Part shown: piece by piece, positions 54,167-59,688 of the stretch
Layout: the number at the start of each line of letters is the position of its first letter
Numbering within the stretch: the first letter of the stretch is position 1
DNA from: Ferrithrix thermotolerans DSM 19514
GTDB lineage: Bacteria > Actinomycetota > Acidimicrobiia > Acidimicrobiales > Ilumatobacteraceae
Length of the DNA stretch: 59,688 bases
Direction of reading: 5' to 3'
NCBI GenBank assembly: GCA_945861025.1
Contig: CAMASN010000012.1
Coordinates: forward strand, 1 to 59,688
Notes under the pieces: generated by a model
Databases searched by the model: none
The model's input: the letters and a program-made list of their open reading frames with translations, nothing else
What the model was told of the DNA's origin: nothing
Made by a program: the position numbers and the translations under genes

Positions 54167-55375
54167 CTAGATGGCCGCTGTGAGCGGGTCGTAGCTGTAC
54201 ACCCACTCGAGGGGTCCAAAGCCTGCGATTCCACTGGCCAAGAATTCATCTCGGCCCTGTTGCATCTCTCCGTCTGGCATATGGAACAGATCGCGGTTCA
54301 TGAACGACGTGGTTTGCACTTGCGCGGTTCGGCCTTGGCGCGCGGTTTCGTAGCGACGCAGCGCTGCAATCACTGCGGTGTTGTCGGCATCGTCGACCCC
54401 TTCAAGGTCGTGAACTTCGTCGAGACAACGTCCGAGAATCGCCGCATCTTCGATTGCTTGGCATGACCCCTGCGCCATGAACGGAAGCATCGGGTGGCAC
54501 GCATCGCCGAGCAACGTTGTGCTGCCGATGCCCCATTGCTCAAGCGGTTCGCGGTCGTACAGGGCCCAACGGAAAACGGGTTCTTCAACTCGTTCGAGAA
54601 TTGAAAGCAGCTCTGGCGACCAACCTTCGAAACGCTCACGAAGATCGTCGAGGGTTCCGGGTTCGGTCCACGACTCTGTGGTCCATGAGTCCTCGGGAGA
54701 GATGCAGACCAAGTTGAGATACTGACGGTCTTTGCCGATGAAGTAACTCACCACGTGACGATCTGGTCCGACCCGATTCGTGAAGTCAACCGGCAGGTCC
54801 TCGACCGCATCGAGTGGCACCAAGGCGCGGTACGCAACCGACCCGCTGAAGCGCGCCGAGTCGACGCCACCCACGCTTGGGCGCACCACCGAATGGATTC
54901 CGTCGGCACCGATAACTACGTCGAACGGCAACGATGTTTCATCCGCGAAGAAGATCGTCGAAGTCCCGTCGCCCGGCTCAACGTGTGTCACACGGCTACC
55001 AAGTGACACGCTGATATTGGGCACGGCAGCCACTGCTTGAGCGAGGATTTCGATGAGGTCTGTGCGAGCCACGCTGGCAAGCGGCATGCCGTACTGATCG
55101 GCGAAGGCCTCGTCGAAATCGTTGGCTCGGATGATCGAGTCGTCTTCCCAACGGCGAAACACCATCCGCTCGGGATGCACCGAGATCTCGTCGAAGGCAT
55201 CGCCTAATCCGAGCGAATGCAGGACACGCCCAGCATTCGGACTGATCTGAACTCCGGCACCCACTTCGCGGAACGCCGAAGACCGCTCAAAGACCGCGAC
55301 ATCGTGACCGCGGTGCGCAATGACCAGCGCCGCAGTAAGTCCGCCAATACCTCCACCAACAATTCCGAACCGCAT
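54167..55375 (-). CDS. FAD-dependent monooxygenase (salicylate hydroxylase-like)
   Basis: A 402-residue group A flavoprotein monooxygenase: FAD dinucleotide fold FGIVGGGIGGLTAALV, the DG motif VVIGADGIHSVVRP and the GD motif LLGDACHPMLPFMAQG. This fits ring-hydroxylating enzymes of the NahG/UbiH group. The ATG at 55375 lies 7 bases after TAGAGT, and that -10 box is made from the last codons (ATA-GAG-TAA) of an acyl-CoA dehydrogenase remnant. The frame is open further upstream, but that reading crosses the remnant out of frame. Confidence 0.9.
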   Translation of the reverse strand: MRFGIVGGGIGGLTAALVIAHRGHDVAVFERSSAFREVGAGVQISPNAGRVLHSLGLGDAFDEISVHPERMVFRRWEDDSIIRANDFDEAFADQYGMPLASVARTDLIEILAQAVAAVPNISVSLGSRVTHVEPGDGTSTIFFADETSLPFDVVIGADGIHSVVRPSVGGVDSARFSGSVAYRALVPLDAVEDLPVDFTNRVGPDRHVVSYFIGKDRQYLNLVCISPEDSWTTESWTEPGTLDDLRERFEGWSPELLSILERVEEPVFRWALYDREPLEQWGIGSTTLLGDACHPMLPFMAQGSCQAIEDAAILGRCLDEVHDLEGVDDADNTAVIAALRRYETARQGRTAQVQTTSFMNRDLFHMPDGEMQQGRDEFLASGIAGFGPLEWVYSYDPLTAAI

Positions 55376-55380
55376 CAGGC

Positions 55381-55479
55381 TTACTCTATGCGCAAGCCGG
55401 GAAGCGCCCCGGCAATAGCCAACCGCGAAATTCCTGAGGTGACCTCGAAGACGGATCGAATCTTGGCATCGCGGTGCCC
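55381..55479 (-). pseudogene. Remnant 1 of an acyl-CoA dehydrogenase 3' end
   Basis: The minus strand reads RDAKIRSVFEVTSGISRL then AIAGALPGLRIE and stop. It matches the universal acyl-CoA dehydrogenase C-terminus (RDAKI..IFEGTSEIQRLVIARA) and shares about 18 of 32 residues with remnant 3, but FEGT is now FEVT and the SEIQ core is decayed. No 5' part of the gene is present. It is the most degraded of three copies. Confidence 0.8.
55383..55388 (-). promoter_or_regulatory. -10 box of the FAD monooxygenase, inside remnant 1
   Basis: TAGAGT ends 7 bases before ATG 55375 and overlaps the ATA-GAG-TAA end of the acyl-CoA dehydrogenase remnant. Confidence 0.6.
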
Positions 55480-55522: not shown

Positions 55523-56506
55523 GTGAACGATGCAGTGAGAAGTACCCATTCGGGGGAGTTCGCCGTAGAGGCGCGTGGGCTCACCAAACGCTATGGGGGC
55601 GTAGTCGCACTCGATGGCCTTGATCTCTCCGTCCCGACCGGCTCAGTCCTGGGGCTACTGGGTCCGAATGGTGCCGGCAAGACAACCGCAGTTTCCATAC
55701 TGACGACGCTCCTTACACCCGATGCCGGAACAGCACGGGTCGCTGGTGTCGATGTCCTGAGTGAACCGCAACGCGTGAGGTCGTTAATCGGCTTGTCTGG
55801 GCAATACGCCGCCGTCGACGAACACCTCACCGCGACAGAGAACCTCGAAATGATCGGATGTCTGTACGGGATGCGTCGCCGGGCAGCCCGCAAGAAGGCG
55901 AACGAACTCATCGAGCGCTTTCGCTTGAGCGAATCCGCCAATCGGCCGCTGAAGACCTTCTCCGGAGGAATGCGACGTCGCATCGACTTGGCGGGAGCAC
56001 TGCTGGCCGATCCCCCGGTTCTCTTTCTTGATGAGCCGACAACCGGACTCGATCCGCGAAGTCGAGGCGAACTGTGGGATGTAATCCGCGAACGTGTACA
56101 AGCTGGCACCACCGTGGTTCTCACGACCCAATACCTTGAGGAAGCCGATCAACTCGCTCACGAAATCGTCGTGATTGACCACGGTCACGCAATCGCGCGG
56201 GGCACCTCACAAGAACTGAAACGGCGTATCGGGGGCGAGCATCTCGATATTCATCTCGCGTTCCCCGAGGACCTTTCTCGTGTTGAAACGATCGTTCGAC
56301 CATTCGCAATAGGGGCCATCCGCATCGACGATCAGGAGGCACTCGTTTCGATTCCGGTCGCCACAGGTGTGGAGGCTCTCGGCTCGGTGATGGTTGAACT
56401 CTCCGCACAGAACGTTGAGATCGTTGACATCGGCCTGCGACGACCAACCCTCGACGACGTTTTCATGGACCTCACGGGACACAAGAGCCAGGAGGACCAG
56501 TCGTGA
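55523..56506 (+). CDS. ABC transporter ATP-binding protein, DrrA type
   Basis: A 327-residue ATPase: Walker A LLGPNGAGKTTAV, Q-loop LSGQYAAVDEHLTATENL, signature FSGGMRRRIDLAGALLADPP, Walker B LFLDEPTTGLD and H-loop TTQYLEEADQLA. The C-terminal ~90 residues and the closing LRRPTLDDVFMDLTG match DrrA-like drug/lipid exporters. GTG 55523 is 6 bases after TAGGCT. It overlaps the permease by four bases. GC is slightly lower than in the core genes and it lies among the integration remnants, so acquisition is plausible. Confidence 0.93.
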   Translation: MNDAVRSTHSGEFAVEARGLTKRYGGVVALDGLDLSVPTGSVLGLLGPNGAGKTTAVSILTTLLTPDAGTARVAGVDVLSEPQRVRSLIGLSGQYAAVDEHLTATENLEMIGCLYGMRRRAARKKANELIERFRLSESANRPLKTFSGGMRRRIDLAGALLADPPVLFLDEPTTGLDPRSRGELWDVIRERVQAGTTVVLTTQYLEEADQLAHEIVVIDHGHAIARGTSQELKRRIGGEHLDIHLAFPEDLSRVETIVRPFAIGAIRIDDQEALVSIPVATGVEALGSVMVELSAQNVEIVDIGLRRPTLDDVFMDLTGHKSQEDQS

Positions 56507-57297
56507 TCAGCATGATTCGCGATGCCACCACAATCGCCCGACGAAACATGATCCGCATCAGGCGCGTGCCCGAAGTGATGGTCTTCGTCATCATTCAGCC
56601 ACTCATGTTCGTGCTGCTTTTCGCGTACGTGTTCGGAGGCTCAATCGACATTCCCGGAGGCAACTATCGCGAGTTCCTCATCGCTGGAATCTTTACTCAA
56701 ACCGTAGTTTTCGGCGCGACGTTCACCGCATCTGGCTTGGCCGAGGACGTGCAAAAAGGGTTGATCAATAGATTCAGATCACTCCCGATGTCACGCTCGG
56801 CGGTGGTGGCGGGTCGCACAGCCAGCGACGTGGTCTACAACATGCTGTCGATCATCATCATGTCGTTGGCAGGATTGGCAGTGGGATGGCGCATTCGAGG
56901 TTCAGTTCTCGATGCTGTGGTCGCCTACTTGCTGCTGCTCTTCTTCTCGTACTCGTTCTCTTGGGTGATGGCGTGCCTTGGCCTGTTGGTTCCCACTCCG
57001 GAAGTGGTGAACAACGCAACCTTCATCGTGCTCTTTCCGCTCACCTTTATCGCCAACACCTTCGTTCCATCCGACACCTTGCCTGGCGTGTTGAAAACCA
57101 TCGCCGAATGGAATCCGGTGTCGACATTGACGCACGCAGTTCGTGTTCGGTTCGGAAACCTTCCCGCCGAAACCCCCAAGCCAACCGCATGGCCACTGCA
57201 GAACGCAATGTTGTACTCGCTCGGATGGGCAATTCTCTTGATCGTTGTCTTCGCACCGATCGCCACGCGCTTGTATCAGCGCACCGGAAAGCGTTGA
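56503..57297 (+). CDS. ABC-2 type permease, DrrB type
   Basis: A 264-residue ABC-2 permease with six membrane helices: MVFVIIQPLMFVLLFAYVFG, ILI-type loops, AGIFTQTVVFGATFTASGLA, ...IIIMSLAGLAVGWRIRG, VAYLLLLFFSYSFSWVMACLG and a final ...YSLGWAILLIVVFAPIATRLY. The EVVNNATFIVLFPLTFIANTF segment is typical of DrrB. GTG 56503 overlaps the ATPase stop (GTGA). Together they form one exporter, probably for a hydrophobic compound. Confidence 0.92.
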   Translation: MISMIRDATTIARRNMIRIRRVPEVMVFVIIQPLMFVLLFAYVFGGSIDIPGGNYREFLIAGIFTQTVVFGATFTASGLAEDVQKGLINRFRSLPMSRSAVVAGRTASDVVYNMLSIIIMSLAGLAVGWRIRGSVLDAVVAYLLLLFFSYSFSWVMACLGLLVPTPEVVNNATFIVLFPLTFIANTFVPSDTLPGVLKTIAEWNPVSTLTHAVRVRFGNLPAETPKPTAWPLQNAMLYSLGWAILLIVVFAPIATRLYQRTGKR

Positions 57298-57308
57298 GTT
57301 GCGTCACC

Positions 57309-57371
57309 CCAGCATGATGCTGGGGTGGCTCGCAAATGCATAGAACCGCAGGTCAAGTCACTCGATGCGCA
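57309..57371. repeat. 63-bp direct repeat, left copy
   Basis: Identical base for base to 58094-58156. It spans the last codons, stop and 3' flank of acyl-CoA dehydrogenase remnant 2 and includes CCAGCATGATGCTGG, a palindrome. Beyond 57371 similarity continues only through the coding part, with mostly synonymous differences. Confidence 0.9.
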
Positions 57372-57402
57372 AGCCGGAAATCGCACGAGCGATAACCAAC
57401 TT
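57358..57402 (-). pseudogene. Remnant 2 of an acyl-CoA dehydrogenase 3' end
   Basis: The minus strand reads KLVIARAISGLRIE and stop, equal to the last 13 residues of remnant 3 with synonymous base changes. Similarity stops abruptly upstream at about 57402. It lies in the gap between the DrrB gene and the low-GC membrane gene. Confidence 0.82.
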
Positions 57403-57422
57403 GAATCGGTCGACTGCGGAAC

Positions 57423-58037
57423 TCACTGGAACTGTTCGTCGCCGACCAACTGTAGGAACGTCCACCTATGAAGAACTCGTCTTCGAGCGATGCGGCCCCT
57501 GTATAGAACTCCTTCAAAGAACCCATACACGGGAATGACCACCTGCATCAGCAAGAGAACTCCCCAGGGAACCCAGTCAACGAAGATGAAGATGATTCCA
57601 ACAAGCAATGAGAGGACTGACATCAAAAACAAAATAGACCCGCGAAACCTACCAAACTCAGGCGAATGCGGGAGACCTACTGGAACTAGTAATCCCTTCG
57701 TCACCGCCTCGCTTCGAACGCTATCGGCATACTTCTTCCTGTCCTGCAGCCAATAATAGCCCACCACGAACAGCACGAACCTATTGGTGAGGATTCCTGT
57801 CAACTGGAACACCTCCGACCGATAGTCTTCGGCGTAGACGCCGATCGCACCGACCAAGAACAGGGCCGGGATGGCGACCATGAAGCCCTTCCACTCGCTG
57901 GCTTGACGCATCAACAACCATCGCCAACGGATTGACTCACAACCTGAGAGGTGCCTAAGTTCATCGCCTCCGAGTTTGGCACAATTACGAACCGACTGGC
58001 ACAGCAAACTGGCACAGTTTCGGCACAATTGCGGCAT
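57423..58037 (-). CDS. Low-GC hypothetical membrane protein between the direct repeats
   Basis: An open frame of 204 codons with four hydrophobic segments (MVAIPALFLVGAIGVYA, FVLFVVGYYWL, SILFLMSVLSLLVGIIFIFV, GVLLLMQVVIPVYGFF). No family is recognised. GC is visibly lower than in the surrounding core. The first 42 residues are odd (four Cys from the GGCACA repeats), so the true start may be ATG 57911, giving 162 residues. It is the only gene between the two 63-bp repeats and looks like cargo left by integration. Confidence 0.55.
   Translation of the reverse strand: MPQLCRNCASLLCQSVRNCAKLGGDELRHLSGCESIRWRWLLMRQASEWKGFMVAIPALFLVGAIGVYAEDYRSEVFQLTGILTNRFVLFVVGYYWLQDRKKYADSVRSEAVTKGLLVPVGLPHSPEFGRFRGSILFLMSVLSLLVGIIFIFVDWVPWGVLLLMQVVIPVYGFFEGVLYRGRIARRRVLHRWTFLQLVGDEQFQ
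57978..58027. repeat. Four GGCACA direct repeats
   Basis: GGCACA occurs at 57978, 57998, 58011 and 58022 in one orientation, each in a (C/T)TGGCACA or TCGGCACA context, spaced 20, 13 and 11 bases. They sit between the membrane gene's likely start and the right direct repeat. They resemble operator or recombinase arm-type sites. Confidence 0.5.
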
Positions 58038-58093
58038 TACCGAAGATGAATTACGGCCGAATCAGGCCAAAACCGTTCGAGCACGGGACCAAT

Positions 58094-58156
58094 CCAGCAT
58101 GATGCTGGGGTGGCTCGCAAATGCATAGAACCGCAGGTCAAGTCACTCGATGCGCA
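58094..58156. repeat. 63-bp direct repeat, right copy
   Basis: A perfect copy of 57309-57371, 785 bases away in the same orientation. It covers the 3' flank and last codons of remnant 3. The two copies bracket a low-GC segment, as att sites do around an integrated element. Confidence 0.9.
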
Positions 58157-58238
58157 GGCCAGAGATTGCACGAGCAATCACCAGCTGCTGAATCTCTGAG
58201 GTGCCCTCAAAGATGGTGTGAATCTTTGAATCACGGTT
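58143..58238 (-). pseudogene. Remnant 3 of an acyl-CoA dehydrogenase 3' end (least decayed)
   Basis: The minus strand reads NRDSKIHTIFEGTSEIQ then QLVIARAISGLRIE and stop, an intact acyl-CoA dehydrogenase C-terminus including the FEGTSEIQ motif. Similarity ends just upstream (58239); the following sequence is unrelated and lower in GC. The rest of the gene is missing from the window. Confidence 0.88.
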
Positions 58239-58334
58239 GCATCTCCTTACAGGCTTGGCTTTCACGACTTTTACTGTGTCACGGTGACACAAACTGTGTC
58301 GGAACCGTTCGTATCTAGTCGCAAGTCTGCGGAT
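58239..58334. other. Intergenic junction with an inverted repeat
   Basis: The segment between remnant 3 and the two-gene cassette holds TGTGTCAC-G-GTGACACA (58275-58291), an 8-bp perfect inverted repeat, and a third TGTGTC half-site at 58295. It could be a terminator, an operator or a recombination site for the cassette; I cannot choose. Confidence 0.5.
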
Positions 58335-58766
58335 TTACTTACCGAACATTTTGGGATTTGCACGATTCCTCGCCGCGACAAGCTCGTTGATGTTGTCGTC
58401 CGCTGCACCATTTAATGCGTGCAGGGAACCAATCACATCGACTGCACAAAGAACACTGAGAGCAATTTCATAATGTGGCATATCTGAAACGTTCATGCTC
58501 ATCCACGCCCATGCCTCTTCATCTACCGGACATATTGGGCGAGAGTTAGCAAGGTCACGGATGGTGCGCGCAATGTCTGGATCCTTCGGAAAGTCATCAT
58601 CCTCACCATCGATAAAGACGAGATACAACTGAGAGAGCCTCCATACCCGCCATGCTGCCGTCTCAAAATCACCGAAGGCACCATCACTCTCACGAACTAG
58701 TTGTCTTAGTTCATCAGCTCGACGAGGGTATGTTTCCCTCAGTTTCTGAGATCCTAAAACTTCCAT
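58335..58766 (-). CDS. Hypothetical protein of a low-GC two-gene cassette
   Basis: A 143-residue soluble, mainly helical, acidic protein (ends NRANPKMFGK; centre FIDGEDDDFPKDPDIARTIRDL). No family is recognised. The ATG at 58766 has GGAG 7 bases upstream, a normal ribosome site, unlike the leaderless style of the core genes. It starts 12 bases after the end of the 300-residue gene, whose stop overlaps this ribosome site region. GC is clearly lower than the window average. Confidence 0.65.
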   Translation of the reverse strand: MEVLGSQKLRETYPRRADELRQLVRESDGAFGDFETAAWRVWRLSQLYLVFIDGEDDDFPKDPDIARTIRDLANSRPICPVDEEAWAWMSMNVSDMPHYEIALSVLCAVDVIGSLHALNGAADDNINELVAARNRANPKMFGK

Positions 58767-58778
58767 GTTTCGCTCCTC

Positions 58779-59681
58779 TCAGCCAACTGCTTTGAAGAAC
58801 TTGTGTGTGTTGCGAGCACCGAGTACCGAACTCAATACCTGAGACTCCTGTGACGTGGCGGGTCTATTCAGAAAGAAACTGGAATCCATTGCTACCGGCC
58901 CGCTCTCACTCGGACGATTTGCCACGAGCGAAAGGCGTTGTTGATTTCCTATCAACATGAAGACACACGTTGCGCCGAGGAAAAGGATGTTTGCACCTTC
59001 TTCATCTCCAACCAGACGGCGTGACTCTGCCCATTCTTGCAACGCTCGACCCGCCATTGTTCCTTCGTCATTTTCAAGAAAGATTGTGAATGCTGCACCG
59101 AACCATGAATCAGACAGAGTCGCATCTTGCCACGCAAAGGCTTCGGCTTGTTTATGAGCCAGAACTCGCGCGATAGCTCCCCACATACATGCATGGCCAC
59201 GACCAATCTCTGGACCATCAATCGGCCATTCACTGGCATCGGGGGAAACCGAACCAGAGTCAGCGCTTGCGATAGCGGCGTTAATCAGTCTTTGTGCTGC
59301 AGCCTTTGAACCTGCCTCGTACTGCTTGTACGCATCAAGAAGAGCTTGGCGGGAGGTCAAGACCGGTGACCGCGTAGCTGAAGCCACTTGCTTTGCTCCG
59401 GCAGTCTTTATCGCCTTGATGTGATCTTGGTACTGCTTAGTCATGATCCCGGCAAAATTTCCAAACCACTCCTCGGCATTGAAATCATCCATGTTCGTAT
59501 CACCCTTCAGTTGTTGATTTTCTTTGTACGTATTTATCGCATCTTTAGTTGCATCTCGTGTTGCGCGGTATGCCTTACCAGACAACTCCGCTGTCTTCTT
59601 GCCAGCTTCAGTTTCAGAGAACGCCATTACGCCACGTGCTGCCCACTTGACCCCATGACCAACAAGGTTCCACATCACCAT
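58779..59681 (-). CDS. Hypothetical protein, first gene of the low-GC cassette
   Basis: A 300-residue soluble protein. Residues 1-60 are amphipathic and Lys/Ala-rich (GKKTAELSGKAYRATRDATK); the middle and C-terminal parts are helical with a TPR-like flavour (YKQYEAGSKAAAQRLINAAI, HKQAEAFAWQDATLSDSWFG). No family or catalytic motif is recognised. Only seven bases lie upstream of ATG 59681 in the window, so the true start may be further out. It forms an operon with the 143-residue protein. Confidence 0.6.
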   Translation of the reverse strand: MVMWNLVGHGVKWAARGVMAFSETEAGKKTAELSGKAYRATRDATKDAINTYKENQQLKGDTNMDDFNAEEWFGNFAGIMTKQYQDHIKAIKTAGAKQVASATRSPVLTSRQALLDAYKQYEAGSKAAAQRLINAAIASADSGSVSPDASEWPIDGPEIGRGHACMWGAIARVLAHKQAEAFAWQDATLSDSWFGAAFTIFLENDEGTMAGRALQEWAESRRLVGDEEGANILFLGATCVFMLIGNQQRLSLVANRPSESGPVAMDSSFFLNRPATSQESQVLSSVLGARNTHKFFKAVG

Positions 59682-59688
59682 AGAAATC

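Follow-up and report, generated by a model that had tools for sequence, protein, structure and literature searches.

Some temperate phages and integrative elements insert into the 3' end of a protein-coding gene and rebuild that end. Integron cassette arrays consist of small one-gene units in tandem with a repeated recombination site between them. The closest pattern that we find described, as far as the available text goes, is the additive flexible genomic island of freshwater Methylophilaceae, which is located at a tRNA-Lys gene, carries repeats of that gene's last 20 bases and has variable content ranging in size from 330 bp to 42 kb (PMC10872708). The accessible part of that source also describes tycheposons of plankton, which combine a tyrosine recombinase with cargo at a fixed site (PMC10872708). 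In Mycobacterium abscessus, a serine-integrase prophage uses attB-21 inside fadE (PMC9934374, available text). The accessible portions of two more papers (PMC7466150 and PMC6299477) are on other subjects. In the literature searched, to the extent that the sources were available, the 3' end of an acyl-CoA dehydrogenase (ACAD) gene is not described as an integration hotspot.

The window examined here, the whole stretch of 59,688 nucleotides that was analysed, corresponds to contig C12, one of the 104 contigs of a 2.89-Mb draft genome; both end at position 59688. It contains a pair of 63-bp direct repeats that are very probably displaced 3' ends of one ACAD gene, an end that appears from sequence comparison to serve as a chromosomal attachment site and, in relatives, as an integration hotspot that is used by a phage among other elements. 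This high confidence covers the displaced-tail and hotspot reading only.

The principle, integration at a gene end with restoration of the tail, is ordinary, and it is the anchor that is unusual and heavily used. Like the Methylophilaceae island, as available text describes it, the locus has insertions that pile up at one site and are marked by anchor-end repeats. The anchor here, however, is a protein-coding ACAD gene with a coding tail of about 93 nt in an actinobacterial family, rather than a tRNA gene with a 20-nt repeat. The window has no tRNA gene, which rules out tRNA attachment and also separates the locus from tycheposons, described in the accessible text as tRNA-bordered and larger (4-200 kb; PMC10872708). 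The likeness to attB-21 is that an ACAD gene serves as attB; in the available account that site lies at about position 280 of 1140, is likely inactivated by insertion and is used by a serine integrase (PMC9934374), unlike the ACAD end considered here. Elements of gene 3' ends in general resemble the present case in having a tail carried by the element that would restore the gene, an integrase adjoining the gene end and empty alleles. They differ in that a single metabolic gene is here the site of numerous layers, of two or more integrase groups and of small inserts lacking an integrase. Integron arrays share the tandem small one-gene units separated by a repeated site, but the site here is a gene tail and not attC, and integrases at two of the related loci score 20.1 (L134) and 24.3 (L127) bits against the integrase_gron model, for which the cut-off is 265.

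The features of the window that bear on this reading are as follows.

54167-55375, minus strand: FAD-dependent monooxygenase gene, directly after tail 1
55381-55476, minus strand: orphan ACAD tail 1, decayed, HRDAKIRSVFEVTSGISRLAIAGALPGLRIE followed by a stop
55523-57297, plus strand: drrA-like and drrB-like ABC transporter genes, between tails 1 and 2
57305-57327: strong hairpin CACCCCAGCATGATGCTGGGGTG, terminator-like (fold z -3.8), between tail 2 and the converging DrrB gene
57309-57371: 63-bp repeat copy 1, the end of tail 2 plus 3' flank
57358-57402, minus strand: orphan ACAD tail 2, KLVIARAISGLRIE followed by a stop, core half absent (E 0.01)
57403-58093: insert A, between tails 3 and 2, without integrase; main open reading frame at 57423-58037, minus strand
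57977-58016, minus strand: three direct TGTGCCA repeats downstream of tail 3, suggestive as candidate integrase arm sites
58094-58156: 63-bp repeat copy 2, the end of tail 3 plus 3' flank
58143-58238, minus strand: orphan ACAD tail 3, NRDSKIHTIFEGTSEIQQLVIARAISGLRIE followed by a stop, whole from RDSKIHTIF to the stop, core included; matches PF00441 with 24.2 bits
58207-58229, minus strand: putative recombinase core in tail 3, inverted repeat TCAAAGAT-TCACACC-ATCTTTGA
58239-59688: insert C, 50.2% G+C, running into the contig end
58275-58291: palindrome TGTGTCACGGTGACACA, 42 bp upstream of the start of tail 3
58335-58766 and 58779-59681, minus strand: open reading frames of insert C, with no significant Pfam, PHROG, PADLOC or NCBIfam match

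The two repeat copies are identical at 63/63 bases, and the next 31 coding bases carry eight mismatches (Fisher exact p = 7e-5 versus 0/63). Read in the ACAD frame, seven of these are synonymous and the outermost exchanges K and Q. The segment between the copies (57372-58093) has 53.0% G+C, compared with 61.5% for positions 1-54000 and 60.9% for the whole window. Perfect repeats, coding bases diverged at synonymous sites beside an identical flank and a segment of lower G+C had all been described in an earlier note on this DNA, and these observations hold. The identity of the gene and the existence of a third tail at 55381-55476 were absent from it. Both repeats are the 3' end and terminator-like flank of an ACAD gene on the minus strand: each copy reads as the last ACAD codons, a stop and then non-coding bases up to the hairpin, of which copy 2 keeps only the core CCAGCATGATGCTGG.

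Several other origins for the repeats have been discarded. The note had named copies at many unrelated loci as grounds for abandoning its reading; a DNA search of the own genome returns two copies, both at this locus, and genome-wide scatter is thus ruled out. No Rfam match reaches the gathering threshold, which excludes a known structured RNA. An insertion sequence or transposon was rejected given that no transposase occurs among the open reading frames scanned and that the repeats are direct rather than terminal inverted.

Displaced tails, with coding parts at 55384-55476, 57361-57402 and 58146-58238, are all that the window contains of this gene, and the same DNA search of the own genome finds no ACAD tail beyond these three. 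There are 35 ACAD-domain matches in that genome, of which one is tail 3 and 30 others, inspected individually, do not end in this tail; the remaining four have no locus and fall outside the inspection. Since an ACAD gene with this tail was not found, the intact gene probably lies past the contig end at 59688. Tail 2 differs over 41 nt at five positions from the g6 and g25 genes and at six or seven from those of its own genus. A clearly native origin by codons was therefore dropped for tail 2, and its native status rests solely on its place beside drrB. Tail 3, compared with 45 intact-gene tails, differs from a g6 gene at three of 92 nt, from other genes at five or more and from the four genes of its own genus at 14-17. 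It thus looks imported from an allele of another genus, in keeping with the note's suggestion that the coding side came from a different allele.

Tail 1 has a counterpart in a relative. In G006, of the same genus, an intact ACAD gene lies about 90 bp from drrB, and a tail still more decayed than tail 1 (L080) lies behind drrA at the tail 1 place, so that the drrAB layer predates the split from this relative. The drrAB genes directly adjoin an intact ACAD gene in G006, G009, G112 and G217.

Tails of this kind are widespread among relatives, whose family we infer to be the Ilumatobacteraceae. A tail-length DNA query finds matches in 143 of 221 family genomes and at least two in 31 of those 143, the own genome counted, although these numbers may take in intact genes and paralogues. 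Intact ACAD genes and orphan tails are present in 80 loci and 79 further stretches that partly overlap; some of the 80 repeat the same contigs, and part of the loci examined were picked for a strong or multiple tail match, so they give no frequency. The window and the 79 stretches yield 32 orphan tails, with eight further hits cut by contig ends, and tail 2 falls below the cut-off of this count. The starts of 22 of the 32 lie between nt -5 and +13 of the tail, where the core is at nt 12. Three others start at -17 inside a shared element end, one at -48 and six between +19 and +26. The count is informative for orphan starts only: a 'gene' was defined by an upstream ACAD motif, and the upstream extension of all 52 of 52 gene tails is by construction. 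The same search with a reversed control sequence gives no hits. Most orphan tails start near the codons K-I-H-T-I-F (AAGATTCACACCATCTTT), and the usual start, AAGATTCACACC, forms with its surroundings the inverted repeat AAAGAT-TCACACC-ATCTTT. Such an inverted repeat is what the core of a tyrosine recombinase would show; the KIHTIF codons in themselves favour this symmetry. The putative core of tail 3 draws support from the place where most relatives' orphan tails start and from a similar palindrome beside a phage attP (see below).

Empty and occupied alleles can be compared where a malic enzyme gene is the recurrent downstream neighbour (17 distinct contigs). An intact ACAD gene is directly upstream of it in four (L199, L244, L294 and L295) and an orphan tail in eight (L069, L120, L123, L124, L129, L130, L131 and L134). 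By eye, a decayed tail precedes it in three more (L078, L289 and L291), and two are ambiguous (L200 and L292). The orphan lies about 80 bp before the malic enzyme in seven of the eight, and the same spacing occurs in the empty sites L199, L294 and L295; the distance is instead about 165 bp in L123 and about 60 bp in the empty L244. The contigs of L120, L123 and L134 do not include the intact gene. In relatives such as L069, L124 and L126-L131 a displaced tail bounds an insertion with the intact gene before it, and variable content at the fixed ACAD anchor, with anchor-end repeats between units, also occurs.

Other arrangements of the tail were observed at single loci. The L145 contig (G119:C67) has an ACAD tail at its beginning and breaks off within a second ACAD 3' stretch, with an overlap of 20 bases, and may be a tandem or circular unit; contig C16 starts with the same 119 bases. 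L142 and L143 (G137:C57 and C55) share an ACAD 3' part with ten differences in 345 bp, diverge after the stop and are probably two strain alleles in one draft genome. Right after the ACAD stop of L088 (G007) are short pieces like the last ACAD bases in both orientations. At L072:8089-8320 (G038), from another family of the order, an ACAD tail and a 27-bp hairpin-like flank are repeated in tandem without cargo.

Integrase-like sequences occur at ACAD ends in L127, L134, L189, L246, L226, L266 and L196, with an edge fragment in L085. PF00589 matches L127, L134 and L246; the other four complete the set by similarity to these or to a phage integrase, and the 329-aa open reading frame of L226 has no Pfam match. 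A first group has three members beside ACAD tails (L127, L134 and L189), the only family hits at E<=1e-30 (next hit 2e-10), and the own genome has none. By our reading, the L189 member sits at the tail of a different, paralogous ACAD. The L127 element measures 8.4 kb and encodes, besides the integrase, a type II restriction-modification pair and a replication-initiator-like protein; L134 encodes the integrase, a small HTH protein and a replication-like protein. The L134 integrase is absent from phage and plasmid collections, has no tblastn-confirmed relative in viral contigs and, in a search that had no positive control, gives no hit at E<=1e-20 in any of the 397 genomes sampled from the order.

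The second group resembles a phage integrase and lies directly after the ACAD stop in L246, L226, L266 and L196. On a 29-kb viral contig, which may be either a free phage or a phage integrated at its edge, an integrase, an ACAD tail and an excisionase stand in a row together with head and endolysin genes. The gene tail is a putative attP in this one viral contig, an element other than that of the window. Searches of viral contigs with a flank 19-mer and a longer tail pattern give no hits. The palindrome TGTGYCACNNTGRCACA, with two substitutions allowed, has eight sites in 840 kb, seven of them at most 125 bp from an ACAD tail, including 58275 in the window. A search for arm motifs and wider half-sites finds 11 sites within 150 bp upstream of tails, a weak enrichment of 2.7-fold, compared with 0-1.3-fold in other bins.

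Cargo at these loci includes likely and possible defence genes. Behind the ACAD-linked integrase of L266 (3127-6452, JAUSLQ010000083.1) is a reverse transcriptase (best PADLOC model RT_UG22, E 2.9e-60) adjoining a nitrilase-like protein (RTasNitrilase, weak, E 3.4e-5), and the pair is likely a defence system. An AAA_14/DUF4143 protein in L246 (17984-19366; PADLOC PDC-S01, E 1.5e-163) lies shortly before a decayed orphan tail. A 192-aa nucleotidyltransferase-like protein, weakly AbiEii-like, is beside ACAD tails in several genera (L069:3762-4337, L124, L139, L148, L194 and L200). Integrase fragments in the short loci L037 and L038 (G000:C10 near 67978 and C8 near 68697), 43% identical to the phage integrase over 45-57 aa, are perhaps cut-off elements.

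An open reading frame and Pfam scan finds no tyrosine integrase in the assembled part of the window. The main open reading frame of insert A, likely starting at 57911 (162 aa), had been called a membrane gene; its sequence is hydrophobic, but Pfam offers no significant match (best CitMHS, E 0.15). Its protein is absent from eight other genomes of the own genus and has one match elsewhere among the 221 family genomes (G240, 43% identity), with no ACAD tail in the 8 kb examined there. The 300-aa protein of insert C has one match outside the window (G223, 58%, with two stop codons), with no ACAD tail in 12 kb. L120 and L134 carry a motif related to TGTGTCACGGTGACACA at the same distance from the tail.

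Coding tails do not track genus. G035 and G202 belong to different genera. Their shared 801-bp insert is 97.4% identical, compared with 76-82% for the ACAD bodies, 88.1% for gene tails, 94.3% for orphan tails and 90.5% for malic enzymes. Compared with G136, an empty site of the same genus, G035 has 97.0% identity in the ACAD body, 87.7% in the gene tail, 92.6% in the orphan tail and 97.5% in the intergenic region. Its body is near that of G136 and its gene tail is not, so the gene tail was replaced, though not with that of G202; judged by sequence, its orphan tail is not cleanly native either. The proposal that every gene tail is imported with its insert is not borne out by this pair, in which gene tails differ beside a near-identical insert. 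G035 and G202 show the same pattern as the window, a diverged tail beside a near-identical flank.

In the proposed scheme, tyrosine-integrase elements and phages would target a core located some 80 nt ahead of the stop codon. Each arriving element would supply a tail copy of its own, which would keep the enzyme gene complete, and the previous tail would be displaced downstream as an orphan. Repeated insertions would then stack orphan tails, and the window would comprise three layers, with drrAB lying over tail 1, insert A separating tail 3 from tail 2, and insert C beginning at 58239. The sequence basis for this scheme consists of the tails and the place where they usually start, the empty and occupied alleles, and the integrases and phage at like sites in relatives; we infer the recombination itself, and also that insert A came in this way by means of an integrase supplied from elsewhere. 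For the 0.7-kb segment, the best reading is a small insert that lacks an integrase and is flanked by displaced tails, and its arrival by this route is reasonably likely. The earlier note's view of a recombination or integration locus agrees with what is found at ACAD ends in relatives, where the empty alleles that it proposed to look for also exist. Several observations count against the scheme. One integration at the core does not copy a 52-bp non-coding flank, tail 2 lacks the core, and the cargo of inserts A and C has a single match each beyond the window, in neither case next to an ACAD tail. The failure to find in the own genome an intact ACAD gene with this tail or an integrase of the three-member group, the differing gene tails of G035 and G202, the lack of hits for the L134 type of integrase in the order and the modest arm-motif enrichment also weigh against it. 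The flank copy beside tail 3 probably arose, or was made uniform, through a later homologous exchange in the ACAD end. Later homologous replacement of that end, which would run to the stop codon, where homology ends, probably accounts for the identical flank and is the explanation that we prefer.

The 63 bp had been proposed as a recombination core in its own right, making the copies attL and attR of the 0.7-kb segment with a crossover in the flank or hairpin. Such a core would suit the perfect non-coding identity, the sharp drop in the coding part and the palindrome at which identity ends. It is nonetheless improbable, because displaced copies in relatives mostly start at the upstream core and the block common to them runs from near AAGATTCACACC to the stop codon. 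Furthermore, among the matches listed for the flank in 220 other family genomes, none exceeds 36 bases (81% identity) and the best has E 6e-4 over 25 bases. Within-genome pairs of gene and orphan likewise share no flank where compared, except in G040, whose contigs overlap by 141 bases; the tandem case of G038 stands beside these pairs. A misjoin of the repeat copies near the contig end is a very remote prospect. The contig does stop 1.45 kb past tail 3, and several relatives' contigs likewise break at or near this tail, but the side with drrAB, tail 1 and the monooxygenase follows the order of G006 (DrrB 100% and DrrA 99% identical), and the end motif at the junction of tail 3 and insert C recurs in contigs of G114 and G206.

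More substantial is the possibility that homologous recombination or slippage copied the tail together with its flank and that the segment reflects unequal exchange between strains, with no site-specific recombinase involved. The cargo-less tandem units of G038 make duplication or exchange a serious rival for this pair, and the disregard of coding tails for genus and the missing core of tail 2 also fit. A plain copy, however, would not yield a diverged coding part beside an identical flank, and the low G+C of insert A and the absence of its protein from the eight other genomes of the genus argue against it. Duplication, which is compatible with the hotspot reading, is possible although on balance unlikely. 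Integration at the ACAD end followed by homologous replacement is retained as the preferred account.

On this preferred account, the odd repeat is explained as the visible trace of an integration hotspot, and the case points to the coding tail of an enzyme gene being exchanged between genera. Orphan ACAD tails provide a simple marker for mobile cargo, including defence genes, in bacteria known chiefly from draft genomes, and the locus offers a test of how small integrase-less inserts move. We suggest, tentatively and against the odds, that small one-gene units of about 0.7-1.3 kb, bounded by ACAD tails, moved in trans between Ilumatobacteraceae genera by means of integrases supplied by rarer elements and phages with the same ACAD core. 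If this is true, the C-terminal codons of this ACAD would be a family-wide recombination currency.
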